In this document: piece after piece, positions 9,290 through 23,156 of the stretch
Layout: each line of letters begins with the position of its first letter
Position numbering within the stretch: the first letter of the stretch is position 1
Source of the DNA: Spirochaetales bacterium
Lineage (GTDB): Bacteria; Spirochaetota; Spirochaetia; Sphaerochaetales; Sphaerochaetaceae
Assembly (NCBI GenBank): GCA_017614375.1
Contig: JAGABZ010000001.1
Location: 62,001 to 126,000, forward strand
Direction of reading: 5' to 3'
Length of the DNA: 64,000 bases
Notes under the pieces: generated by a model
Databases searched by the model: none
What the model saw: only the letters and a program-made list of their open reading frames with translations
What the model was told of the DNA's origin: nothing
Position numbers and translations under genes: made by a program

Positions 9290-10447
9290 TCAATCGGCAG
9301 GGGCTTCGGGCTTTGTCGGCCTGTGCGGTCTGGGACGGCGGTTTTTCCCCGGCGCGGGTTTGGCTGCGGATTTCGGAGCGGGGCGTCTGCGGCGGTAGCG
9401 GGGCAGGGCCAGTCCGTTTTCTTCCATGAAAAGGGAGGCGGCGGTCTCAAGTTCACCGTTGGGGGGTGTAATGGGAGCTATGAAAACCTTGATCTGACGG
9501 AAGATATCGCGCAGCAGCTCCTCCGGTGTCTCCAGCTCAGGGTTGATTACCAAAAACGGTCCGCAGAGGCGAAGGAAAAACTCGGAGCGGTCGACTTCCG
9601 GGCCGCTGCCGCCGTGGGAAGCGGAGGAGCGGACTTTCTCATCGAGCTCATCCAGCGAGTTGTAAAGCTGTTCGAAGCGGGTATAGACGCACAGACAGGG
9701 CATGATGTAGGCCAGCAGTCCCATCCTCTGCATCTGGCGGATTATCGGGGCGCTGCAACCGGAACCGAGGATCTTGAGGATTTCCTCAGTCATCCGGGAG
9801 GGGCTGACAGAGGAGAGACAAGACCTGTCACGGCGTATGGCGAAAGCCAGCGGTACTGTCATCCTGAAGCCTGTGGTGACGCTGTACTTCACGGCCCTGA
9901 TCATCCTGACAGGGTCATCCTTGAAGGTGGTGGCCAGGGGAAGGACGGACCTCAGACGGCGCCGGCGGAAATCAGCCATGCTGTCGTTGTAGTCGGTAAT
10001 AGTTCCGTTCATCGGGTCGTAGTAGAGACTGTTTACCGAGAAATCCCTGCGCACGGCATCGGTTTCAATTGTTCCGAAGACGTTGTTCGAGTCATCCGAG
10101 TCGGCGGATGTTCCGCGGAAGGTCGAGACCTCGATTATCTTGTCACCGTAGACCAGGTGAACCAGTTTGAAACGCCGTCCTATGATGCGGGCGTTGTAGA
10201 ACAACCTGTGGATCTGGCGGGGAGAGGCCGATGTGGCGATGTCGAAGTCCTTCGGAACCCTGCCCAGGAGCAGGTCACGGACCGCACCGCCTACTATGTA
10301 GGCCTCAAAGCCCTTTTCCCTGAGGCGGGCTATCGCCCTGATGGCATCCCTGTCTATGCTTTTCGGGTCTATGTGATGCTCGTTTTCGGTGTAGACGCGG
10401 GCGACGGGAATCATCCTGAGGCCGGCCTTCTGGTATCTTATACGCAT
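9290..10447 (-). CDS. pcnB: Poly(A) polymerase PcnB-type nucleotidyltransferase
   Basis: A class II nucleotidyltransferase of the PcnB group, which adds 3' A tails that promote RNA decay. 385 residues. The signatures run AYIVGGAVRDLLLG, KDFDIATSASPRQIH, ARIIGRRFKLVHL, IIEVSTFRG, NVFGTIETDAVRRDFSVNS, then DPVRMIRAVKYS and SRMTEEILKIL. IGRRFKL and NVFGTI-DA-RRDF mark PcnB rather than CCA-adding enzymes. The last 45 or so residues are very Arg/Pro/Lys-rich, a basic tail likely to touch RNA. The start at 10447 has AAAGG six bases upstream. It heads a pcnB-AroB-like-nifS-thiI operon, divergent from hisS. Confidence 0.9.
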   Translation of the reverse strand: MRIRYQKAGLRMIPVARVYTENEHHIDPKSIDRDAIRAIARLREKGFEAYIVGGAVRDLLLGRVPKDFDIATSASPRQIHRLFYNARIIGRRFKLVHLVYGDKIIEVSTFRGTSADSDDSNNVFGTIETDAVRRDFSVNSLYYDPMNGTITDYNDSMADFRRRRLRSVLPLATTFKDDPVRMIRAVKYSVTTGFRMTVPLAFAIRRDRSCLSSVSPSRMTEEILKILGSGCSAPIIRQMQRMGLLAYIMPCLCVYTRFEQLYNSLDELDEKVRSSASHGGSGPEVDRSEFFLRLCGPFLVINPELETPEELLRDIFRQIKVFIAPITPPNGELETAASLFMEENGLALPRYRRRRPAPKSAAKPAPGKNRRPRPHRPTKPEAPAD

Positions 10448-10539
10448 ACGTGCCTTTACAGTCAGTGCAGTTTTCTTTATTCTTGAGTTGCTTTTGATTT
10501 GTACAATAAATGCCTGTTTTTTTCAACCGGAGATGAAAG

Positions 10540-11826
10540 ATGATTGAGCCCAGAATACTCAAGGGATTCCGCGATTCGCTGCCCCAGCCGGAGCTGAGGA
10601 GAAAGCGCTCGGAGCAGATACTTCAGACTGTGTTCGAAAGCTACGGTTTCGCGCCGATAGACACCCCTGTCATGGAATACACCGAGGTCCTCCTGGGCAA
10701 GGGCGGCGGTGAGACGGACAAGCAGGTCTTCCGCTTCTCAGACAACGGGGGAAGGGACGTGTCCCTGCGCTTTGACCTGACTGTGCCTCTGGCCCGTTTC
10801 GTTTCCCTCCACAGGGAGGAGCTGACCTTTCCGTTCAAGTGTTACCACATAGCCAAGGTTTTCCGCGGTGAAAAGCCCCAGAAGGGCCGCTACCGCGAGT
10901 TTATCCAGTGTGACTTCGACATAATCGGCACTGACAACCCGCTGGCGGATTTCGAGATCCTCAGCATCATGTGCAGTGCCCTCGACGCCCTGAGCCCGGG
11001 AGGATACAAAATCCACCTCTCGCACAGGGGACTTATCAACGAATTGCTTGCCTCACGCGGGATTTATGAAAAGACTACCGAGGTTCTCAGGTCGATAGAC
11101 AAGCTTTACAAGATCGGTGCTGAAAACGTCCGCGCCGAACTGTCCGGAGCCGGATTGGACAGCCCGGCCGCAGAGGCCCTGATGGACTTCATAAAGCCGG
11201 TTTCCGGGACCTACGATGAGGTTCTGGACCGGATGGCAGTCCTCGTCGGCGGCAGGACGGAATCCGTCCGAAGACTTGAACAGGTCTGCTCCCTGCTCAA
11301 GGCCGCCGGTCTGGATAAAAAGGTCATTCTCGACGGCTCAATCACCCGGGGACTGGATTACTACACCGGGGTCGTATTCGAGACGTTCCTCGACGAAATG
11401 CCCTCGATAGGCTCCGTCTGCTCAGGCGGTCGCTACGACAACCTGACCGGGCTGTACTCCAACAGACCTCAGCCCGGAGTGGGGGCTTCGGTGGGAATCG
11501 ACCGTCTGCTTGCCGCTTCTGAGGACATGGAGCAGGAACAGGTGACCCAATCGGACATCGTGTTTTTCCCCGAACCGGTTGATGCCGAGCCTCAGGCCTG
11601 CCTGAATCTGGCCGCCGGGCTCAGAAAGTCCGGTATCAGATGCGACTTCTATCTGGGAAACGCCAAAGCGCGGGATCAGTACGCCTATGCCCAGTCCAAG
11701 GGGGCCCGTTTCGCGGTTACCGGAGCGGAGAACGGTTCGTTCATGTTGAAGGACCTGACCACCCGGGAAACTGCAGAAATCGGTTCGGAAACGGCGGTTG
11801 AGACGATACTCAAGAGGCTGCGGTGA
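10540..11826 (+). CDS. hisS: Histidyl-tRNA synthetase
   Basis: Charges tRNA-His. 428 residues, the usual length. Class II core with motif 2 at FRGEKPQKGRYREF, the HisA signatures LDGSITRGLDYYTG and SGGRYD, and motif 3 at GVGASVGIDRLL, followed by the anticodon-binding domain. GGAG (10529-10532) lies seven bases before the ATG. The 92-base gap to the divergent pcnB contains TACAAT at 10502-10507 but no convincing -35, and no T-box. The stop overlaps the GTG start of the next gene (GTGA), so the helicase is coupled to it. Confidence 0.97.
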   Translation: MIEPRILKGFRDSLPQPELRRKRSEQILQTVFESYGFAPIDTPVMEYTEVLLGKGGGETDKQVFRFSDNGGRDVSLRFDLTVPLARFVSLHREELTFPFKCYHIAKVFRGEKPQKGRYREFIQCDFDIIGTDNPLADFEILSIMCSALDALSPGGYKIHLSHRGLINELLASRGIYEKTTEVLRSIDKLYKIGAENVRAELSGAGLDSPAAEALMDFIKPVSGTYDEVLDRMAVLVGGRTESVRRLEQVCSLLKAAGLDKKVILDGSITRGLDYYTGVVFETFLDEMPSIGSVCSGGRYDNLTGLYSNRPQPGVGASVGIDRLLAASEDMEQEQVTQSDIVFFPEPVDAEPQACLNLAAGLRKSGIRCDFYLGNAKARDQYAYAQSKGARFAVTGAENGSFMLKDLTTRETAEIGSETAVETILKRLR

Positions 11827-14336
11827 TTTATCAGGACCTTCCGGTATACCGCAACCGGGATGAGATACTCAAAGCACTGGAAGAAAACCAGGTAATCGTT
11901 GTCGAAAGCCCCACCGGCAGCGGAAAAACGACTCAGATTCCGCTGATTCTGCTTGAGGCAGGCTATGCGAATGACCGGATGATCGGCATCACCCAACCCA
12001 GAAGAATCGCCGCCATGAGCGTCTGCGACTTTGTAAACACCCAGGTCGGCGCCGGTGAGGGCGTGCACTTCTGTTCGTGCAAGATGCGCTTTTACGACAC
12101 CACCGACTCCAGCACCAGAATCAAAATCATGACCGACGGCATCCTGCTGCAGGAACTCAAGCATGACCCTCTGCTGGAGAGCTACTCGGTGATAATGGTG
12201 GACGAGGCGCACGAGAGGAGCCTGAACATCGATTTCATCCTGGGCCTGCTCAAGAATCTGATCAAACAACGACCGGAGCTCAAGGTCATCATCTCCAGCG
12301 CCACGATCAATACCCAGGTGTTCTCGAAGTTCATGGACGGGGCGAAGATCATATCCATCAAATCACCGGTGTTCCCGGTTCAGGTCAAATACATGCCGTC
12401 AAGTTCCGCCCAGGACATCGATGAGATGATCGACACGACCGTCAGACTTGTGAACTTCAAACTCAAACTTTTTGCCAAAAGCGGGTATGAAAACCGCGAC
12501 GACATCCTGGTTTTCCTCCCCGGTGAGTTCGAAATCAAGACCTGCGTAAAGGAACTGGCCCTGCGCTGTGATGCAGGCAGACTCCTTATACTGCCTCTTT
12601 ACGGGCGGATGAACAAAGAGGAGCAGCAGAAGGTTTTCGAGCCGACCCCGCGCGGAGTCATCAAGGTGGTCGTCGCCACCAATATCGCGGAGACGAGCGT
12701 CACAATCGACGGGATCAGGACAGTCATAGACAGCGGGTTGTGCAAGACGAACTTCTACAATAACCGCAACTTCACCAGCGCACTCGTCACTGAAAAGATC
12801 AGCCGCAGTTCCGCGATGCAGCGACGGGGCAGGGCGGGCCGCCAAAGTCCCGGTTTCTGTTACCGGCTCTACTCCGAGGATGACCTGAAGGAGCGCCCCC
12901 AGTACTCGGCCGAGGAGATTCTCAGGACGGACCTCTCCGAGGTAATCCTCCGAATGAGCGACCTGGGCATATACGATTACGAACACTTCCCGTTCATAAC
13001 CAGACCTTCACGCGAAGCTGTCAGAAGCGCCGAACAGACGTTGAGGTTCCTGGGGGCTATTGACGATAACCGGCACCTGACTCCAGTCGGCAGACTGATG
13101 GTCTGCTTCCCGCTGACTCCCAGACACAGCAGGGTGATTGTCGAGGCGCTGGTCAATTATCCCCAGGTAATTTCCGAGATTCTCGTTGCGGTGAGTTTCA
13201 TCTCGACGAGAACCCCGTTTATCCTTCCCGCCGGCGAAGAAGATGCCGCCCGGGCCGCTCACAGGCATTTCAACGATGAAAAGGGCGGTGATTTCTGCTC
13301 GATGCTTGAGATCTTCTCGAATTTCACCGGACTGGAGAGCCTGCAGAAGAAGACGACCTTCTGTGAACGCAACTATCTTGATCTGCAGACAATGCTGGAA
13401 ATCGAACATGTCCAGGACCAATTATCGCAGATTGTGACCGACCTCGGATTCGTCCTGTCAAAGGGTGGCAGCCGGGAGGAGTACCTCGGCTGTCTGGCTG
13501 CCGGACTGAAGCAGTTCGTCTGCGTAAAGGCCAACGCGAATTCATACCGCAGCCTGACGGCGGACAGCATCTATATCCACCCCGGCAGCGCCTGGTTCGC
13601 CAACATGCCCCGTTTCATTCTGGCAGGCGAGATCGTCAGCACTTCCCGGATGTACGCCCGCACCGTTTCGCCTCTGAGCAGGGAGATCCTGGACCTGGTG
13701 TCCCCGACACTGTACGAAGAACTGACTTCCCGCTCTGCAAAGGGCACGGAAAGGGAAAACGACCCGGATTCTGGTGAAAAAGCCCGGGGCAGAGCCAGAA
13801 AGGTCGTAATCTACAACCAGAGTCTCGACGCTGTCGAAACCGTGACCAGAAAGGGTAAATCCGAACTGACGGTGCTCATCCCGATTGAGAAACTCAGCCT
13901 CCTGGCAAAAGCCCAGAACCGCGCCCGCAGGCACCCGAAAAACATGAAGGCGGCCCTGGTTCTCAACGGTCTGTTCATCCACCGGGGGGACAGCCTGTTC
14001 AACATAATCGACCTCTCGGGCAAACTGCCGGACAACCTCCTGCCGGTGGATTTGCGCAAGCAGAAGAGCTTTCACCTGGATGAATTCGAACAGAACGCCG
14101 ACAAACTGGATCTGGTCGGCCGGCTGGCGATTCTTCCGAAGGACCGGACGGCTCTGGGGTTCGTTGAGCTGCTGACTTCGGGAAAGGACAGTTTCTTTCT
14201 CAATGCCAACCGGGATTACTACGACAGCCTGAACAATTCCAGTTACAGCCTGATGCTGCTCAAACAGTCATTCAAGGGCAACAAACGCCTGAACACCGTA
14301 TACAACCGGATCATGAACATCGCCAACAGGCTTTAG
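11823..14336 (+). CDS. hrpA: DEAH-box RNA helicase, HrpA-like
   Basis: 837 residues starting at a GTG that overlaps the hisS stop. An ATP-dependent helicase of the DEAH/RHA group: motif I PTGSGKTTQIP, Ia TQPRRIAA, II VDEAHERS, III SAT, V ATNIAETSVTIDGI, VI QRRGRAGR. The winged-helix, ratchet and OB parts follow, and the C-terminal third is family-poor. GFCYRLYSEDD and EEILRTDLSEVILRM match HrpA more than HrpB, although the protein is shorter than E. coli HrpA (about 1300). A role in mRNA processing or ribosome quality control is likely. The TAG stop overlaps the stop of the convergent gene at 14333. Confidence 0.88.
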   Translation: MIYQDLPVYRNRDEILKALEENQVIVVESPTGSGKTTQIPLILLEAGYANDRMIGITQPRRIAAMSVCDFVNTQVGAGEGVHFCSCKMRFYDTTDSSTRIKIMTDGILLQELKHDPLLESYSVIMVDEAHERSLNIDFILGLLKNLIKQRPELKVIISSATINTQVFSKFMDGAKIISIKSPVFPVQVKYMPSSSAQDIDEMIDTTVRLVNFKLKLFAKSGYENRDDILVFLPGEFEIKTCVKELALRCDAGRLLILPLYGRMNKEEQQKVFEPTPRGVIKVVVATNIAETSVTIDGIRTVIDSGLCKTNFYNNRNFTSALVTEKISRSSAMQRRGRAGRQSPGFCYRLYSEDDLKERPQYSAEEILRTDLSEVILRMSDLGIYDYEHFPFITRPSREAVRSAEQTLRFLGAIDDNRHLTPVGRLMVCFPLTPRHSRVIVEALVNYPQVISEILVAVSFISTRTPFILPAGEEDAARAAHRHFNDEKGGDFCSMLEIFSNFTGLESLQKKTTFCERNYLDLQTMLEIEHVQDQLSQIVTDLGFVLSKGGSREEYLGCLAAGLKQFVCVKANANSYRSLTADSIYIHPGSAWFANMPRFILAGEIVSTSRMYARTVSPLSREILDLVSPTLYEELTSRSAKGTERENDPDSGEKARGRARKVVIYNQSLDAVETVTRKGKSELTVLIPIEKLSLLAKAQNRARRHPKNMKAALVLNGLFIHRGDSLFNIIDLSGKLPDNLLPVDLRKQKSFHLDEFEQNADKLDLVGRLAILPKDRTALGFVELLTSGKDSFFLNANRDYYDSLNNSSYSLMLLKQSFKGNKRLNTVYNRIMNIANRL

Positions 14337-15256
14337 TGGATGTTGATCTCCTGAATCTGCTCGATCTGGGCGTTGCGCCTTTCAAGAACATCCTGGATTG
14401 TTCCGGTACTCCACTGGTCAATGTTCACCGTGGCGTCGATGATCTGCACCGAACTGTACTTCTCAAGTGCGTCGACGATGTACTCCTTGATTTCCGGAAC
14501 CAGGGGAGCGGGAATCAGGTTGGGGGAGCGCAACCCGATCTGAAGCTTGTATTTTCCGTCAATCACCTGAACGTCCAGGCTGCTGATCTTGATGGTGCTG
14601 TCATAGTCGTACAGGCACTGGTTTATCATCTGTCTGAAGACGTTTCCGGAGAGAATCTGCTGTTCCGGTACGGAGAACTGCGGCTTGACCAGGGTCTTTT
14701 CATAGGGCTTCTGACGTGTCCTGCGGCCGAACTGTTTGAGGAAAACCTGTATTGAGTCGTACACGATGCCGGGGGACGTCCTTGTTACTTCAATCGTCGG
14801 AACGGGGATGACATGCTTGCCCTCGGTGTATCTGGAGCGCAGGGCGGCTTCGATTTCATCCTGGCTGGAGACGTCCTCTATTCTGAAGATTCTTTCCGGC
14901 TGGGGAAGATTCAGACGCCCCGCGATGACCCCGACCATTTTTTCGCTGGTTCCGATAATCAGAATCCGCCTGTAGTATTCGCTCTGAAGAGCTTTGAGTA
15001 TCTCGGACCGGTGTTCTTCCTCCCTGAACAGGGCAGTCTTCATCGCGGTGATGAAGTTTCCCTCCTGCTTGGCGGACTTGCCGGCCAGAAGCTTCGTACC
15101 CTTGATCAGCAGGCCGTCGTCGATTATCAGGTTGATTCTGTAGCGGGAGGCAATCATCTGCGATTTGAAGCTTTTGCCCGTGCCGCTTTTACCCACAAGG
15201 GCATAGACATGCACCGGGCGGCGTCGGGTCAGGAATTCACGGATTTTCTCCCACAT
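14333..15256 (-). CDS. P-loop NTPase with C-terminal Asp23-like domain, unknown role
   Basis: 307 residues. The N-terminus (MWEKIREFLTRRRPVHVYALVGKSGTGKS) has a clean Walker A at about residues 22-29, and a following nucleotide-domain part includes RILIIGTSEKMVGVIAGRL. The last 100 or so residues alternate strand and helix (SSLDVQVIDGKYKLQIGL, then EYIVDALEKYSSVQIIDATVNID) much as Asp23/Gls24 proteins do; this is pattern recognition, not a search result. There is no signal or membrane segment. It stands alone between convergent hrpA and divergent rnfC. It has no ribosome-binding site at proper spacing, and TATAAT ends six bases before the ATG. Function unknown. Confidence 0.75.
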   Translation of the reverse strand: MWEKIREFLTRRRPVHVYALVGKSGTGKSFKSQMIASRYRINLIIDDGLLIKGTKLLAGKSAKQEGNFITAMKTALFREEEHRSEILKALQSEYYRRILIIGTSEKMVGVIAGRLNLPQPERIFRIEDVSSQDEIEAALRSRYTEGKHVIPVPTIEVTRTSPGIVYDSIQVFLKQFGRRTRQKPYEKTLVKPQFSVPEQQILSGNVFRQMINQCLYDYDSTIKISSLDVQVIDGKYKLQIGLRSPNLIPAPLVPEIKEYIVDALEKYSSVQIIDATVNIDQWSTGTIQDVLERRNAQIEQIQEINIH

Positions 15257-15349: not shown

Positions 15350-16663
15350 ATGTCAAGGTTTCTGACGTTTCCCCGTGGGGGAGTCCACCCGGGGGACATG
15401 AAAGACCTGTCCAAAGACAGCCCTATAAAAACACTTGAAACCCCGGCAGAACTGATCATCTCGATGTCCCAGCATCTCGGCGCGCCCGCGGTCTGTCAAA
15501 AGGCCAAGGGTGACCGGGTACGCAAGGGTGAGCTGATCGCCACCGCCGCCAGTTTCATTTCCGCCAACATCCACAGCCCGGTCAGCGGCACGATTACCGA
15601 CATAAGGCCGGTGACGCTTGCCAACAGCGTCTGCTGCGATGCGGTATTCATAAAGCCCGAACCGGCAGAAGATGACCCGACTTTCGATACGAAGGGTTAT
15701 GCCTCTTTAAGCGGCGAGGAACTGCTCGGAATCATCAAGGACCAGGGGCTGGTGGGACTGGGAGGTGCTACCTTTCCCGTGAACGTCAAGCTGACGGTTC
15801 CCATAGGCAAGCCGGTGGATTTCCTGGTGCTCAACGGTGTCGAGTGCGAACCTTACCTGACCGCAGACTACAGACTGATGCTGGAGCATCCCAGAGCGAT
15901 TCTCGACGGAGCGATGATAATCTCCAAAATCGTCAATCCCGGCTCGATCATCATCGGAATCGAGGCGAACAAGATGGACTGCGTCGCCGTATTGGAGGAT
16001 GAAATCCGTAAAGCCGGTTATCCGATAAAGGTCGCGCCGCTTAAGATGAAATACCCCCAGGGTGACGAAAAACAGCTTCTGAAGGCTGTCACCGGGCGTG
16101 AGATTCCTTCGGGCAAGCTTCCCATAGACATCGGCTCGATTGTCTGCAACGTAGGAACGGTCAACGCCATCCAGCAGGCTGTGGCTTTCGGAAAGCCCCT
16201 GTTCGAGAGGGTTGTCACCGTCACCGGAAACTGCGTCCGCAATCCCGGAAACTTCCTCGCTCCAATCGGGACGAAAATCAGAGACCTGATCGAGGCTGCC
16301 GGCGGACTGGTTGAGGAACCTGACAAGCTGATCAGCGGAGGACCGATGATGGGGTTCTCCTTCTGGGACCTCGATACCCCGATCACGAAGGGCACAAGCG
16401 GAATACTCGCGTTGAAATACAAGGGCCGGCAGCAGCGCCAGACGCATTGTCTGCACTGCGGCAAATGCGTCGCCGCCTGTCCGATAGGACTTGAGCCGAC
16501 GATGATGTACAATCTTATCACGAGCGGAGACTACGCCGGTGCCATGGCCCATGACCTGATGGACTGCAAGGAATGCGGGAGCTGCAGTTTCAGCTGTCCC
16601 GCCCAGTTGCCGCTGGTGCAGACCTTCAGACTCGGAAAGAAGATGGGGAGGGCAAAGAAATGA
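15350..16663 (+). CDS. rnfC: Rnf complex subunit C (NADH-binding, two [4Fe-4S])
   Basis: The peripheral subunit that exchanges electrons with NAD(H) in the membrane Rnf complex (ferredoxin:NAD oxidoreductase coupled to Na+ or H+ transport). 437 residues: an N-terminal barrel-sandwich domain (PAVCQKAKGDRVRKGELIA), the glycine-rich nucleotide region GLVGLGGATFPVNVKL, a SLBB-like part, then two four-cysteine motifs, HCLHCGKCVAACP and DCKECGSCSFSCP. AAGGAG (15338-15343) lies six bases before the ATG, and TATAAA at 15321-15326 is a possible -10. First gene of the operon C-D-G-E-A-B. Confidence 0.97.
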   Translation: MSRFLTFPRGGVHPGDMKDLSKDSPIKTLETPAELIISMSQHLGAPAVCQKAKGDRVRKGELIATAASFISANIHSPVSGTITDIRPVTLANSVCCDAVFIKPEPAEDDPTFDTKGYASLSGEELLGIIKDQGLVGLGGATFPVNVKLTVPIGKPVDFLVLNGVECEPYLTADYRLMLEHPRAILDGAMIISKIVNPGSIIIGIEANKMDCVAVLEDEIRKAGYPIKVAPLKMKYPQGDEKQLLKAVTGREIPSGKLPIDIGSIVCNVGTVNAIQQAVAFGKPLFERVVTVTGNCVRNPGNFLAPIGTKIRDLIEAAGGLVEEPDKLISGGPMMGFSFWDLDTPITKGTSGILALKYKGRQQRQTHCLHCGKCVAACPIGLEPTMMYNLITSGDYAGAMAHDLMDCKECGSCSFSCPAQLPLVQTFRLGKKMGRAKK

Positions 16664-17727
16664 TCAAGGTCAGTTCCTCACCGCATGTTCACAGCCGGCA
16701 GAATACCCAAAGCATAATGCTCTTTGTGATTCTGGCTCTCTGTCCTTCCGCAATCTGGGGCGTTTTCGTATTCGGGCTGAGGGCTCTTGTGGTGCTGGCA
16801 ATCTCCATTGCATCAAGCGTCGCGGCCGAATACGCGCTGAACCTCATCTCAAAGGAAAAGACCCTCTGGGATCTCACGGCGGTACTTACGGGACTGCTGA
16901 TCGGCATGAACATGAGTCCCGCCGTTCCGCTCGGAATACCCGTGTTGGCAAGTGTATTTGCCATCGCTGTCGTGAAGTGGACCTTCGGCGGCGTCGGATG
17001 CAACTGGATGAATCCCGCCCTGGGCGGAAGGGTATTCGTGTTTTTCAGCTTCTCTTCGGCGATGAGCCGCTTCGTTCTGCCCTCCGCGCTGGGCAATGCC
17101 GACGCGGTATCCTCAGCCACGACGCTTTCATTCGCAAAGACAGCCCTCTCCTCGGGTGAGTTCATCGGCCAGAACAGCCTGCAGATCCTTCAGACCCAGT
17201 TGTACCCGGTCTCACGCTTTGCCGAAAGCCTTTCGAATTCCACCGGAATCAACGCATACACGATTGATGCCTTCTTCGGGCTTCAGGGAGGTTGCATAGG
17301 TGAGGTTTCTGCCCTTCTGCTGATTCTGGGCGGTCTGTTCCTCATTGCGACGAAAGTAATCACCTGGCATATCCCGGTTGTTTACGCAGCGTCCTATGCC
17401 CTGTTGAACTGGGTGTTCGGCGGACTGCCGTACGGTACGGGTCTGTTCTCCGGCCTGGTCATAGATCCGCTTCTTCGGGGAGGTTTCCTCCTGGGCGCCA
17501 TCTTCATGGCAACGGACTATGTGACTACTCCTGTCACGCGCAAAGGTCAGGTGATCTTCGCCTGCGGCTGCGGTTTGTTCACCTTCATTCTGCGCAGTTT
17601 CGGTTCGCTTGCCGAGGGTGTGTCGCTGGCCATAATAATCATGAACATTGTCACTCCGACAATCGACAGGTACGTCAGGCCGAAGAAGTTCGGATACGTC
17701 AAACCGGTCAAGGGAGGCGCAAAATGA
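16660..17727 (+). CDS. rnfD: Rnf complex subunit D (flavinylated membrane protein)
   Basis: An integral membrane subunit carrying covalent FMN and forming part of the ion path. 355 residues from the ATG at 16660, which overlaps the rnfC stop by four bases; a longer frame from 16573 would run through the end of rnfC and is rejected. There are about nine hydrophobic segments and the family motif GGVGCNWMNPALGGRVF. The expected flavinylation site DxxSGAT appears here as DAVSSAT, with Ser for Gly, the Thr being the likely FMN carrier. DYVTTPVTRKGQ is the conserved late loop. Confidence 0.96.
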   Translation: MIKVSSSPHVHSRQNTQSIMLFVILALCPSAIWGVFVFGLRALVVLAISIASSVAAEYALNLISKEKTLWDLTAVLTGLLIGMNMSPAVPLGIPVLASVFAIAVVKWTFGGVGCNWMNPALGGRVFVFFSFSSAMSRFVLPSALGNADAVSSATTLSFAKTALSSGEFIGQNSLQILQTQLYPVSRFAESLSNSTGINAYTIDAFFGLQGGCIGEVSALLLILGGLFLIATKVITWHIPVVYAASYALLNWVFGGLPYGTGLFSGLVIDPLLRGGFLLGAIFMATDYVTTPVTRKGQVIFACGCGLFTFILRSFGSLAEGVSLAIIIMNIVTPTIDRYVRPKKFGYVKPVKGGAK

Positions 17728-18260
17728 AAGCTTACGCGAAAACAGCCCTTGTCCTGTGTCTGATCTGCGCCTGCGCCGCCCTGGTGCTCTCGCTGGCCAA
17801 CGCCCTGACCGCACCCAGAATCAAGGACTATGAGGACGGCGTTCTAAAAAGCGCACTTGAGGCTGTCAGCGGAGGAAAGGCGGTAGGGGATTACGTGCCG
17901 GTCGAGGACAACCCGGTGGTCTCGGGTTACTATCCGATCCTGCCGTCGGGATACATCCTTTCGCTGAGGGCAAACGGCTACGGAGGGGAAATCACTCTTC
18001 TTGCCGCTTACGATGCAAAGGGCGTACTGACCGCCGCGAAACTGGTCTCCGACAGCGAGACACCCGGATTGGGAAAGCGTGCCGAAGAAAGCTGGTACAT
18101 GGACAAGTTCATCGGAAAGGGAACTGATATGCCGGTGAGAAAGAACATGCTCTCAGCTTCCGACGCCGAGGCGGTCAGCGGTGCTTCGGTGACCTTTACA
18201 GGCGTTTCCAGGGCTCTGCTTGCCGGAAGTATGTTTGTATCGATGAAGGAGGCCAACTGA
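17724..18260 (+). CDS. rnfG: Rnf complex subunit G (covalent FMN)
   Basis: A 178-residue subunit with one N-terminal membrane anchor (KTALVLCLICACAALVLSLA) and an FMN-binding domain facing out of the cytoplasm. The flavinylation motif is DAEAVSGAS, where the usual SGAT ends in Ser instead of Thr. If FMN is attached, it would be through Ser or another site. The conserved SDSETPGLGKRAEE loop of the NqrC/RnfG FMN domain is intact. The ATG overlaps the rnfD stop by four bases. A flavin transferase would be needed; none is seen in the window. Confidence 0.94.
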   Translation: MKAYAKTALVLCLICACAALVLSLANALTAPRIKDYEDGVLKSALEAVSGGKAVGDYVPVEDNPVVSGYYPILPSGYILSLRANGYGGEITLLAAYDAKGVLTAAKLVSDSETPGLGKRAEESWYMDKFIGKGTDMPVRKNMLSASDAEAVSGASVTFTGVSRALLAGSMFVSMKEAN

Positions 18261-18898
18261 TGAAAGTCAAGGAACTTACCAAGGGAATCCTCAGGGAGAA
18301 CCCGGTCTTCATCATCATGCTCGGCATGTGTCCCACCCTGGGCGTCACCACCCAGGTGATCAATGCCCTGGGAATGGGAGCAGGGGTCATCTTTGTTCTG
18401 ACATGCAGCAATATCCTCATTGCCGCCCTCAAGAACATCATTCCCGACAGCGTCCGCATCCCTTGCTACATCGTCATAATCGCCTCGTTCGTCACTATCG
18501 TCGAGATGTTCCTCCACGCTTTCGCCCCGTCAATCTACGCGGCTCTGGGAGTCTACCTGCCGCTGATAGTGGTAAACTGCATAATCCTCGGCAGGGCCGA
18601 AGCCTTCGCCAGCAAGAACTCGGTTGCCGACTCATTGCTTGACGGAATCGGCATGGGACTGGGTTTCACCCTGGCTCTCACGCTGATCGCGCTGATCCGT
18701 GAGGTTCTGGGCAAGGGAACGATTACTGTTTTCGCAATCGGCGGTTTCAACGGGGTAATCAGTGTCCCGCTTCTCAAGGACTGGCCGGTCAGGGTGATGG
18801 CCCTGGCTCCTGGAGCGCTGTTGCTGATGGGCTATCTAAAGGCGTTCTTCAACCGGCTGTCTGAAAAGAAAGCCCAGAATCAGGAGGCTGCAAAATGA
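18260..18898 (+). CDS. rnfE: Rnf complex subunit E (membrane)
   Basis: 212 residues with six hydrophobic helices. NPVFIIMLGMCPTLGVTT and the inverted repeat half around NCIILGRAEAFASKN are the hallmark NqrD/RnfE sequences. They hold the Cys residues thought to bind an intramembrane iron site shared with RnfA. AAGGAGG (18246-18252) lies seven bases before an ATG that shares one base with the rnfG stop (TGATG). Acts with RnfA and RnfD in moving electrons and ions across the membrane. Confidence 0.96.
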   Translation: MKVKELTKGILRENPVFIIMLGMCPTLGVTTQVINALGMGAGVIFVLTCSNILIAALKNIIPDSVRIPCYIVIIASFVTIVEMFLHAFAPSIYAALGVYLPLIVVNCIILGRAEAFASKNSVADSLLDGIGMGLGFTLALTLIALIREVLGKGTITVFAIGGFNGVISVPLLKDWPVRVMALAPGALLLMGYLKAFFNRLSEKKAQNQEAAK

Positions 18899-19488
18899 CC
18901 TACATCGCAATCTTCCTGACGTATGTGTTCATCAATAACTTCATTCTGGTCCAGTTCATGGGCATCTGCCCGTTCATAGGGGTTTCAAAGAACAGCGAGA
19001 GCGCCATCGGCATGGGACTGGCGGTTACCTTCGTCACCGGAGTCACTTCGGCAATCTGCTGGCTTGTTTACTACGGGATTCTCCAGCCGCTTCATTTGGA
19101 ATACCTTGAGACAGTCACCTTCATTCTGGTAATCGCGTCTCTGGTCCAGCTGGTTGAGATGGTCATCAGAAAGATCAGTCCGTCCCTGTACAAGGCGCTG
19201 GGCATCTTCCTCCCTCTGATTACCACCAACTGCATCGTACTGGGAATCGCCCTTATTAACATAACCAACAACTACAACCTGCTGGAGAGTTTCGCCGCGG
19301 GTGTGGCATCAGGTCTCGGTTTCACCCTGGCAATCATCCTTATGAGCAACATCCGTGAAAAACTCGACCTGACCCCGGTCAGAAAGAGTTTCAGGGGCGT
19401 TCCGATTGCCTTCATCACCGCCGGGCTCATGGCGCTAGCCTTCATGGCCTTTGACAAGAGCCTGCTGTCCAACCTTCATCTGGTCTAG
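18895..19488 (+). CDS. rnfA: Rnf complex subunit A (membrane)
   Basis: 197 residues, six hydrophobic helices, homologous to RnfE but with opposite predicted topology. NNFILVQFMGICPFIGVSK and TTNCIVLGIALIN are the two cysteine-bearing family motifs. The ATG overlaps the rnfE stop (ATGA). The length and both motifs are as expected for a functional NqrE/RnfA-type subunit. Confidence 0.96.
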   Translation: MTYIAIFLTYVFINNFILVQFMGICPFIGVSKNSESAIGMGLAVTFVTGVTSAICWLVYYGILQPLHLEYLETVTFILVIASLVQLVEMVIRKISPSLYKALGIFLPLITTNCIVLGIALINITNNYNLLESFAAGVASGLGFTLAIILMSNIREKLDLTPVRKSFRGVPIAFITAGLMALAFMAFDKSLLSNLHLV

Positions 19489-19497
19489 GAGCCTTCC

Positions 19498-20295
19498 ATG
19501 TCTGTACTCATACCTTTTGTGATTGTGGCTGTCCTGGGAGCTCTCCTCGGATTCGGACTGGCAATCGCCGATAAGAAACTCGCCGTAAAGAAGGACCCGA
19601 AACTCATTGCCCTTGAGGAAATGATGCCCGGTGCCAACTGCGGAGGCTGCGGATTTGCCGGATGCAGCGCATATGCCGAGGCGGTCTTTTCCCGGCGCGC
19701 CCAGATCGGGCTGTGTTCCCCAGGCGGAAAGGCCCTGGCCGACAGAATGGCAGAGACCATAGGTGAGGCCAGCGTCGAGGTCAAGCCCAGAGTCGCCCAT
19801 GTCTTTTGCGCGGCCCCACCCGAGGAAGTCAAAAAGGACTTCGACTACAGCGGACTGGAGGACTGCAACGCCGCCTCCATTCTCTTCAAGGGTTCCAAAA
19901 GCTGCAAATACGGCTGTCTCGGTCTGGGTTCCTGCATCAAGGTCTGTCCCGCAGGTGCCATAGAGCGTCTTGAGGACGGCAGGATCCACGTCAGGACCGA
20001 TATCTGCATCGGCTGCGGAAAATGCGAGAAAGCATGCCCGAACGGCGTTATCCGCCTGGTGGACGCCGGTCAGAAGTACTTTGTCTCATGCAACAGCAAG
20101 GACAAAGGGCCTGTTGTCAGGGCCTGCTGTCCGTCCGGTTGCATCGGCTGCTTAATCTGTGAAAAGAAACACCCGGGTTCAGGTTTCAAGGTCGAGTCCT
20201 TCCTGGCTTCATACAGTTCCCAGGACGCTGATGACGAGGCCTCCGAGGCCGCGTTGGCTTCCTGTCCGAGAAAGATCATAGGCAGGGCTGAATGA
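19498..20295 (+). CDS. rnfB: Rnf complex subunit B (ferredoxin-type), C-terminal clusters altered
   Basis: The ferredoxin-accepting subunit. 265 residues: an N-terminal membrane anchor, the GANCGGCGFAGCSAYA Fe-S motif, then CKYGCLGLGSCIKVCP and CIGCGKCEKACP for two clusters. The next expected motif, CxxCxxCxxxC, reads GCIGCLICEKKH, with His in place of the last Cys. The final expected ferredoxin motif retains only one Cys (ASCPRKII). So it seems to hold fewer or altered clusters at the C-terminus compared with long RnfBs. GGAG lies six bases before the ATG. Its stop overlaps the GH57-like gene. Confidence 0.95.
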   Translation: MSVLIPFVIVAVLGALLGFGLAIADKKLAVKKDPKLIALEEMMPGANCGGCGFAGCSAYAEAVFSRRAQIGLCSPGGKALADRMAETIGEASVEVKPRVAHVFCAAPPEEVKKDFDYSGLEDCNAASILFKGSKSCKYGCLGLGSCIKVCPAGAIERLEDGRIHVRTDICIGCGKCEKACPNGVIRLVDAGQKYFVSCNSKDKGPVVRACCPSGCIGCLICEKKHPGSGFKVESFLASYSSQDADDEASEAALASCPRKIIGRAE

Positions 20296-22028
20296 AGGCA
20301 GTAATCGGGATCTGCAGTCAGCTTCAGAGCGGGACTCCGGCACCTGTGCTCGAGCGCCTGCTCTCATCAACTCTCACGCCCCTGTTGCAGGACATGTACA
20401 GGGACGGAGGAATCTGCGTCTCGATGACCCTCTCCGGATTCGAGATGGAGTGGATCGAAGCCGCGCATCCCGAAATCAACGTTCTTATAAACATCCTTGC
20501 CCGCAGGGGACAGATTGATTTCCTTTCGACCTCTTTCAACGGTCTGGCTCTGCAGCTTCTGCCGTCGGCCGAACGTGCCGCCGAGGTGGAGAAGACCACG
20601 ACCTTCATCCGCAGGCGGTACTCACGCAGACCGTCGGGCTACTGGTCCTACTCACAGGTCTGGAGTCCTTCGTCCCTCTCGACAATCAAGCTCTGCACAC
20701 TTGATTATGCCGTCATTTCCACCTCATCGGCCTCTGACGACCGCTTAAGGGGACGCAAGAACCCCTTTGTAATGAGCGAGCTGGGCAAGTCGATAATCGT
20801 GATTCCTACAAATGACGAGATTTCAAAGCTCGTTTCCGAATCCCGTTCAATCAGACGGCCGACCGAGGTCCTGTGCCAGCTCGTGCAGAAGGCGAGGATT
20901 GAAAGGGACGCGCCGCTTGACTACGTGATGCTCAACATCGACCAGCTCAACTATGAGCAGTGCAACGGCTACGATGTCATAATGTCGGCTTTCGAGCGTC
21001 TCAGATCAAGAAAACTCAGCGCTTCAGCCCTGGATCTGGCCGAACTCCGGGCCGAGGTCCTTGAGGGCGGATACCTTGCTCCGGGGATCTACGGCTATGA
21101 TTTCACCCCTTCGCACCCGTCGGTGAACGAAATAGTCCTCTCAAATCCCACACAGCGCGGGTTTTTCAGGATAATGAACCGCTACTGGCAGTATCTCAAG
21201 GCCTGGAACGCGGACAAGTCGCTGAAGAACGAAGTTGCCTCGGCAATCGTCCGCGGTATGGGGGCGGTTGATTACCTTTATCCATCCGTATTTGCCAGAC
21301 GGAACACCATGGGAAAGACCCTGGGCGAGATCGACAGGCTGCTTGAGACCCGTTCACTACGCCTGCCGGCGCTTATCGACCTGGACGATGACGGCTATGA
21401 CGAGCTGATCATGCAGGGGGAAATCTTCACCGCGGTTTTCGATACAAAAGGCGGGGGGATAGACTGTTTTTTCAACAACCTCGGTCTGCCTGATTTCCGT
21501 CTCCCGGTTCAGATTCCGGTTTTCTCCGATCGGATCTACGGCCAGGAAAAGGGTGAAATCGCCCTGAACAGGCAGCGTTTTACGATGGAGACCGATGAAA
21601 AGACCTATTCGACGGTGACCTTCAGTTCCGGAGTGCTGAAAAAGGCCGGGCTGGACATCCGTGTCAGCAAGAGCTTCTGCTTTGAGGGCGGGAGTCTGAA
21701 TATGGAGTTCACCATTACCAACAACGCCGACAAGCCCTGCGGGCTGAGATACGAAGTCCTCATGCCTCTGCGTTGCAAGGCCCTCTCACCCGTCGGCACA
21801 AAGGCAAAGACAGCACGTTTCTCCATCCCTGATTCCGACGGGGAGTTCACGATTTCGGTTAAGGCGGAAACAAAGGAGTTCGCCCTGGACTTGCTCAGAA
21901 GCGAAAAGAAGGGCGCCTCGGTTGCCGATAGCGGCAAAGAGGACTATAATGACGGCTACAGACTCCAGTGGGATCTGAAGATTGCCTCCGGCAGCGTTTT
22001 TGAACAGAGGCTCTCATTCTCCTGCTGA
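20292..22028 (+). CDS. GH57-like protein without catalytic residues
   Basis: 578 residues, starting inside the rnfB stop (ATGA). The layout follows GH57 alpha-amylase/4-alpha-glucanotransferases: an N-terminal barrel, SGFEMEWIEAAHPE, then ARRGQIDFLSTSFNG where active enzymes have GQVE-GGxYEP, and SGYWSYSQVWSP where they have GxWLTERVWxP. A C-terminal beta domain follows (LDDDGYDELIMQGEIFTAVF). The nucleophile Glu of ERVW is Ser, the HQP motif is absent (GICSQLQSG) and the Glu of YEP is missing. The family call is by pattern and could be wrong in detail. It is probably a binding or structural protein. No signal peptide. Confidence 0.65.
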   Translation: MKAVIGICSQLQSGTPAPVLERLLSSTLTPLLQDMYRDGGICVSMTLSGFEMEWIEAAHPEINVLINILARRGQIDFLSTSFNGLALQLLPSAERAAEVEKTTTFIRRRYSRRPSGYWSYSQVWSPSSLSTIKLCTLDYAVISTSSASDDRLRGRKNPFVMSELGKSIIVIPTNDEISKLVSESRSIRRPTEVLCQLVQKARIERDAPLDYVMLNIDQLNYEQCNGYDVIMSAFERLRSRKLSASALDLAELRAEVLEGGYLAPGIYGYDFTPSHPSVNEIVLSNPTQRGFFRIMNRYWQYLKAWNADKSLKNEVASAIVRGMGAVDYLYPSVFARRNTMGKTLGEIDRLLETRSLRLPALIDLDDDGYDELIMQGEIFTAVFDTKGGGIDCFFNNLGLPDFRLPVQIPVFSDRIYGQEKGEIALNRQRFTMETDEKTYSTVTFSSGVLKKAGLDIRVSKSFCFEGGSLNMEFTITNNADKPCGLRYEVLMPLRCKALSPVGTKAKTARFSIPDSDGEFTISVKAETKEFALDLLRSEKKGASVADSGKEDYNDGYRLQWDLKIASGSVFEQRLSFSC

Positions 22029-22042
22029 ACCCGGAGGGCCCT

Positions 22043-23156
22043 ATGATTCTTGCAAACAAAAACCTTCTTGATGAGTTGAGACACGAAACCAGCGCCATCT
22101 GGGGGCGTCTTTGACCCGGATTCGGTAAAAAAACAGATTGCGCAGCTTGAGGCAAAGACAGCCGAGCCGGACTTCTGGAACGACCGGAAGGAAACCGAGG
22201 CTACCTTTGCCAAAATAAACAGTCTCAAGGAGTCGATTTATCCCTGGGAGGAACTGATCGACAGCATAAAGGAGCTTGACGAGCTGATTGAACTCTACGA
22301 CTCCGAGGATAATCCCGACCAGTACGTCGGTGAAATCGAGACCGAGATCAGCAACCTCTATGCACGGTATGACAAACTCAAGACCAAAACGTTGCTCAAC
22401 GGTATTTACGACAAGGGAGACTGCTTCCTGACCGTACACGCCGGCGCCGGCGGTACCGAGGCCTGCGACTGGGCCCAGATGCTTCTGAGGATGTACACCC
22501 GCTGGTGTGAGAGACACGGCTTCAAGGCCGAGGTTCTCGATGTCCTTGAAGATGAGGGCGGAATCAAGAGCGCTACTGTTGAGGTAAAAGGCGAGTACGC
22601 ATACGGTTATCTGAAGGGTGAGGCCGGTGTGCACAGATTGGTCCGCATCTCTCCGTTTGATGCCAACGCCAGACGTCACACCTCGTTCTCTTCGGTATAC
22701 ATTTCGCCTGTACTGGATGACAGCATCGACATCGTCATCAAGCCGGAGGATATCCGCATCGACACCTACAGAAGCGGCGGGGCCGGGGGCCAGCACGTCA
22801 ACAAGACCGATTCGGCGGTCCGCATCACCCACTTCGAGTCGGGCATCGTCGTCCAGTGCCAGAACGAGCGGAGCCAGATAATGAACAAGGACATGGCGTT
22901 CAAGATGCTCCGCTCCAGGCTTTACGAATACTACAAGGCCAAAAAGGAAGAAGAGAACGCCAGGCACGCCATCGCCAAGAAGGACATCTCCTGGGGCAGC
23001 CAGATCCGTTCCTACGTCTTCCAGCCTTATACCCTTGTCAAGGACCTGCGTACCGGCTTTGAAAAGGGAAATATCAACGCGGTAATGGACGGGGACCTGG
23101 ATGAGTTCATCGAGACCTTTCTGCGCTGGTATCAGGATCAGGGTCTCTCCGAATGA
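22043..23156 (+). CDS. prfB: Peptide chain release factor 2 (programmed +1 frameshift)
   Basis: Terminates translation at UGA and UAA. The frame opens at ATG 22043, meets TGA at 22112-22114 after 23 codons, and continues in the +1 frame from GAC at 22113 to the stop at 23154-23156, giving 370 residues. RF2 identity is fixed by the tripeptide SPF (ISPFDANARRHTSF), the GGQ loop at residues 248-250 (GGAGGQHVNKTDSAV) and the overall length. The slippery CTTTGAC with GGGGGC three bases before it is the classical autoregulatory site. GGAGGG (22033-22038) serves as ribosome-binding site. Overlaps the next gene by four bases. Confidence 0.97.
22101..22115 (+). promoter_or_regulatory. prfB +1 programmed frameshift site
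   Basis: GGGGGC with CTT TGA C starting at 22109. The G-run acts as an internal Shine-Dalgarno three bases before CTT, the same spacing as in E. coli. Low RF2 lets the ribosome slip from CTT onto TTT and read GAC, which restores RF2 synthesis. Confidence 0.95.

Follow-up and report, generated by a model that had tools for sequence, protein, structure and literature searches.

The gene that follows rnfB in the window (i.e. the whole stretch of 64,000 nucleotides that was analysed) encodes a full-length homologue of GH57 4-alpha-glucanotransferase in which the catalytic residues have been replaced, and throughout the Spirochaetia most of the corresponding genes lie directly downstream of Rnf/Nqr-like genes, with strong purifying selection wherever close relatives could be compared. 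Rnf is a central energy-conserving pump of anaerobes, and it is tentatively proposed that this dead GH57-fold protein may serve an Rnf/Nqr-type complex as a non-catalytic, ligand-binding accessory factor, either regulatory or acting in assembly. A dependence of the gene on Rnf is no more than possible, given the 9 loci that keep it where no local Rnf is present.

The open reading frame runs from the ATG at 20292 to the TGA at 22028 (Table 1). The coupling to rnfB that the first-pass annotation had proposed can be read directly from the sequence as an ATGA overlap. Its description of the gene as the last of the Rnf set does not hold, since prfB begins only 14 bp beyond the stop, and the gene sits between rnf and prfB. 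No convincing terminator was found between the GH57-like gene and prfB, where none stands out from chance. The genes from rnfC to prfB may be carried on a common transcript. The prfB gene itself contains the +1 frameshift site of RF2 (CTTTGAC, 22109-22115), with TGGGGGCGT immediately before it, and most relatives have a CTTTGAC-like site near the expected prfB position. On the other side of the array, a gene on the minus strand (14336-15256) encodes a conserved, weakly P-loop-like protein that is about 40-66% identical among relatives; it is divergent from rnfC in most of them and is present also where the local Rnf operon is gone.

Table 1. Positions in the window of the GH57-like gene, its neighbours, its predicted domains and its former catalytic sites
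Feature	Position	Strand	Remarks and basis
rnfC, rnfD, rnfG, rnfE, rnfA, rnfB (tight array immediately upstream)	15350..20295	+	Pfam and NCBIfam
Overlap ATGA, rnfB stop / GH57-like start	20292..20295	+	Sequence read
GH57-like pseudoenzyme gene	20292..22028	+	578 aa; ORF, Pfam, profile, AlphaFold model, fold match
Degenerate (beta/alpha)7 barrel	20292..21101	+	About residues 1-270; AlphaFold and PDB matches; limits approximate
Former H11-N12-H13 (CSR1), now C8-S9-Q10	20313..20321	+	Family consensus Y-S-Q; alignment
Former nucleophile E123, now S121	20652..20654	+	Varies freely in the family; alignment
Former acid/base D214 and E216, now N215 and D217	20934..20942	+	N and D near-fixed in the family; alignment
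Helical domain	21117..21347	+	About residues 276-352; AlphaFold model
C-terminal beta-sandwich domain (AmyA-gluTrfs_C-like)	21363..22025	+	Residues 358-578; weak Pfam match and fold match
prfB (RF2)	22043..23156	+	Start 14 bp past the GH57-like stop

The profile search against GH57 that had been suggested as a check bears out the assignment. The protein alone matches PF03065 (GH57) with an E-value of 2.2e-8, above the gathering score, and weakly matches the 4-alpha-glucanotransferase C-terminal domain (AmyA-gluTrfs_C-like), while NCBIfam assigns it no family. A search of 61 related genomes gave homologues in 54. PF03065 is matched by every one of the 49 relatives that were aligned, and the C-terminal domain by 32 of them. 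A family profile built from 49 homologues aligns over its full length with the 4-alpha-glucanotransferase of T. litoralis (PDB 1k1w, E 4e-101), its best match in the PDB. The AlphaFold model (mean pLDDT 87.8, pTM 0.85) contains a (beta/alpha)7 barrel followed by a helical bundle, as in GH57, and superimposes on 1k1x with a Z of 30.9 and an rmsd of 2.8 over 539 residues, other GH57 structures giving a Z of about 19-24. Another fold, which had been named as the outcome that would overturn the assignment, is ruled out, as GH57 is the best match both by sequence profile and by structure. Because the first strand of the model starts at residue 2 and no stretch resembles a signal peptide, the protein is taken to be cytoplasmic. 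Matches of the family alignment in public genomes come from Sphaerochaeta and from uncultured Sphaerochaetaceae or Spirochaetales, with rumen or faeces as the source of several, and the family to which the window belongs is probably Sphaerochaetaceae.

In the alignment the loss of HQP, YEP and the ERVW nucleophile, on which the first-pass annotation had based its claim of catalytic death, is evident, together with two losses that it had overlooked, i.e. those of the acid/base (D214, now N215) and of CSR5. Thus HNHQP of CSR1 has become CSQLQ in the window protein, FYEP of CSR2 has become FNGL, TERVW of CSR3 (E123) has become YSQVW (S121) and DDGEKFG of CSR4 (D214) has become LNIDQL (N215), which leaves the protein with neither the GH57 nucleophile Glu on strand beta4 nor the proton donor Asp on strand beta7. 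Catalytic residues were counted in 100 aligned proteins, comprising 11 from the outgroup, 44 from the window's family and 45 from other linked families. Both E123 and D214 are kept in all 11 outgroup proteins, in none of the 44 family members (E is kept in 2 and D in 1) and in 8 of the other 45 linked members; the unlinked sister group retains all GH57 catalytic features. Homologues with intact GH57 residues, the other outcome that had been held to count against a pseudoenzyme, therefore do exist outside the family as far as the catalytic pair is concerned, but none of these 8 orthologues keeps the HQP histidine. The presence of a GH77 amylomaltase was considered as the reason why catalysis could be given up, but shows no pattern: such an enzyme is encoded not only in the window's genome but also in those of nearly all relatives, and of several members that still carry E123.

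In a tree of 83 rows (exact counts may shift, as the search was quick and several branches are long), the 74 rows from Spirochaetia form a single clade with a support of 100, within which the state changes at least 10 times at the nucleophile and at least 12 times at the acid/base. These counts by themselves do not separate loss from gain; as the outgroup is intact, loss is the natural reading. Members with E and D occur among the early Spirochaetia branches, most of which are already linked to Rnf, so that the linkage probably preceded most of the catalytic losses.

The remainder of the pocket has not drifted in the same way. Within the window's family H11 is replaced by Y in 43 of 44 proteins, N12 by S in 40, H13 by Q in 37, D214 by N in 42 and E216 by D in 41. 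Together with E79, these columns have a weighted majority of 0.86 on average, versus 0.45 for the barrel, a value that was reached by none of 20,000 random column sets, although the resulting p-value is only a guide, because some of the columns were chosen once they had been inspected and conservation is in any case usual in the barrel core. The nucleophile column is only at the 30th percentile of conservation. Two positions of the window protein do not follow the family, namely C8 (Y in the others) and D76 (mostly E in the others). Judging from these columns, it seems that the pocket was remodelled and then fixed rather than eroded, and that the protein is a non-catalytic pseudoenzyme which probably binds a ligand.

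Purifying selection was measured among the relatives of the window protein. Their dN/dS values (Nei-Gojobori, close pairs with dS under 1) range from 0.02 to 0.12; the window protein itself has no such close pair, its nearest relative being about 40% identical. The protein evolves much faster than the Rnf subunits, with a local identity of 24-40% versus about 75% for RnfA and 55% for RnfC. The earlier description of a full-length, in-frame GH57 pseudoenzyme is thus supported by the 578-aa reading frame, by the profile and fold matches and by the purifying selection measured in close relatives.

Conservation of the linkage across spirochaetes, likewise proposed as a check, was followed over 71 loci across Spirochaetia, 2 of which are cut by contig ends. 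Rnf/Nqr-like genes lie directly upstream in 60 of the 69 linked-clade loci with enough flank; among the 9 where they do not, 8 have prfB downstream. In total prfB was found downstream in 47 of 68 loci, and among 11 outgroup loci there was none with upstream Rnf/Nqr-like genes and none with downstream prfB. In the window's family the arrangement is tight, with a spacing of -4 to +64 bp to rnfB and of -29 to +67 bp to prfB. In the Treponemataceae and several other families the upstream Rnf/Nqr-like genes are strongly divergent, and the linkage to them persists in families that have no downstream prfB (Treponemataceae and others). A similar gene near rnf in treponemes, which the first-pass annotation had mentioned, was indeed found, as homologues adjoin RnfC/RnfD-like genes in this family, including a presumed member with a T. 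pallidum-sized genome (G114, a single contig of 1.14 Mb). The family names of these groups are assigned from genome size and relatives. For T. pallidum a non-canonical, Rnf-type system has been proposed (PMC7512555).

Several other features were seen at these loci. In early-branching loci about 1.6 kb with other genes separates the GH57-like gene from prfB. Between the two genes, several other Spirochaetia families have a short Cas2-like ORF (L066 11026-11298, PF09827, E 3e-6; also in L067, L069 and L073), and in L066 a 408-aa protein, probably secreted judging by its start and with a weak TPR match, is encoded antisense (9733-10959, minus strand). Some members of the window's family have genomes with a second type of Rnf, in which a single ORF, apparently a fusion, matches RnfD as well as RnfG (L151 8110-9711, L152 6311-7879, L153 10694-12403).

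The association is not absolute. In several lineages, e.g. G020/G035, G026 and G010, no local Rnf operon remains, while the GH57-like gene is still found between the UP14336 gene and prfB. Such genomes carry a further Rnf, whole or partial, at a different place, and both Rnf loci are present in G009, which belongs to the genus of G026. In the one pair without local Rnf that was measured (L037-L108), dN/dS is 0.063, i.e. selection is not relaxed. Retention of the gene under these circumstances implies that its product works for Rnf in trans or else has an independent function. Of the Rnf-linked role suggested earlier, the class-wide genetic linkage therefore stands, tempered by the 9 loci without local Rnf and by the undiminished selection in this pair.

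Conversely, some genomes have Rnf operons elsewhere that no GH57-like gene adjoins, and at least 3 Rnf-bearing genomes have no GH57-like gene. No such gene was found in the presumed Borreliaceae (f19) or in G049, G056 and G397; G049 has divergent Rnf/Nqr-like genes near prfB yet no GH57-like match, while in G056 and G397 the Rnf genes detected are not beside prfB. In G054, one of the presumed Borreliaceae genomes, prfB and ftsY are immediately preceded by an ORF of 771 aa that matches RnfC weakly (L121 8813-11128); it may be what is left of the ancestral Rnf locus, or a fusion derived from it. The apparent absence in G002, G011 and G044 is put down to contig edges, as the contig begins at prfB or no more than about 1.1 kb from it, and G007 (86% complete) gave only a weak prfB match. 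No Spirochaetia genome was seen with the GH57-like gene and without an NQR2/RnfD protein, although this does not discriminate, since nearly all of them have NQR2/RnfD.

Following these results, a plausible course of events would start from an ordinary 4-alpha-glucanotransferase and end at a cytoplasmic, catalytically dead GH57-fold protein. Early in the Spirochaetia the gene would have become fixed behind local Rnf (or divergent Rnf/Nqr-like) genes, at a time when some members still had the catalytic pair. The job for which it was selected would have been independent of catalysis, as is suggested by the repeated loss of that pair under continuing purifying selection. In the window's family the pocket would then have changed and been held constant, from which it may be inferred that the protein still binds, but does not cleave, a ligand that may be an oligosaccharide. 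Produced from a common transcript, the protein could act as a regulatory or assembly factor of the Rnf/Nqr-type complex, possibly in contact with it.

The ancestry also allows a reading in which the protein is a non-catalytic binder or regulator in glycogen or maltodextrin metabolism that never touches Rnf, the rnf-prfB transcript merely setting its expression. This is possible but unlikely; it would fit the descent from a 4-alpha-glucanotransferase, the conserved pocket positions, the presence of GlgA, a GH77 amylomaltase and another GH57 protein in the genome, and the persistence of the gene without local Rnf, but accounts less readily for the many loci at which the gene is preceded by Rnf/Nqr-like genes, some of them highly divergent. 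Retention of the gene in the 1.14-Mb Treponemataceae genome may also speak against it. Rather less probable is a general cytoplasmic scaffold or moonlighting protein that belongs to the prfB-ftsY side and has the Rnf genes as neighbours by history only. Although the gene of the window's family abuts prfB even where the local Rnf operon is missing, no downstream prfB was found at 21 of 68 loci (sampled Treponemataceae included), where Rnf/Nqr-like genes are still upstream, and in early-branching loci other genes intervene before prfB.

The protein could also still be an enzyme whose remodelled pocket employs another nucleophile or another chemistry. The strong conservation of the pocket positions, and the occurrence in the fold search of related barrels with other chemistries (e.g. 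CE4 deacetylases), would be in line with this; the nucleophile column, however, is free among N, G, A, S, Y and D, and no new conserved acidic pair was noticed at the nucleophile strand, which makes continued catalysis slightly more doubtful still. That the gene is a decaying pseudogene is hardly credible and is rejected by the dN/dS values: the loss of the catalytic residues and the rapid divergence of the sequence would fit decay, but nearly all relatives with an adequate contig have full-length ORFs. The non-catalytic Rnf/Nqr accessory factor remains the preferred, if tentative, explanation. A further-reaching version, in which a sugar-enzyme fold was recruited as a dedicated ligand-sensing factor that ties carbon-store status to ion-motive energy conservation, also in reduced treponemal genomes with a non-canonical Rnf, is a good deal more speculative and on the whole improbable.

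As a class-wide neighbour that has been repeatedly decatalysed under strong selection, the GH57-like protein is a concrete candidate for a missing accessory factor of Rnf. In addition, the Spirochaetia homologues form a natural series, from intact enzyme to remodelled binder, in which the conversion of enzymes into non-enzymes can be studied. GH57 4AGT-like pseudoenzymes as such are already known, GH57 'like' groups without catalytic residues having been described in 2018, including 63 4AGT-like sequences (PMC6037648). None of the open-access papers searched names such a gene beside rnf or describes the fixed pocket changes, and within that scope both the class-wide Rnf/Nqr linkage and the fixed remodelling of the pocket look new.

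The 63 4AGT-like homologues are bacterial, 4AGT-related and have replaced catalytic residues (a few with intact machinery), which also describes the window protein, but the searched passages of that report give no genomic context, Rnf link or function for them; they may include the spirochaete proteins. With the enzyme of Thermococcus litoralis (TLGT, PDB 1k1w/1k1x/1k1y) the window protein shares the three-domain architecture over its full length, whereas it differs at both catalytic residues and in each of the five conserved sequence regions. The CE4 polysaccharide-deacetylase pseudoenzyme BA3943 (PDB 6hpa, 6hm9), which turned up in the fold search, is likewise a carbohydrate-enzyme barrel without catalysis, although of another family and another chemistry. 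Finally, window protein residues 357-578 match (Z 16) the mutarotase-like beta-sandwich of 9grx chain 2, from the entry for a chloroplast NDH-PSI-LHCI supercomplex, which offers, as a match at the level of a common fold only, an analogy for a sugar-enzyme fold recruited to an energy-converting complex.
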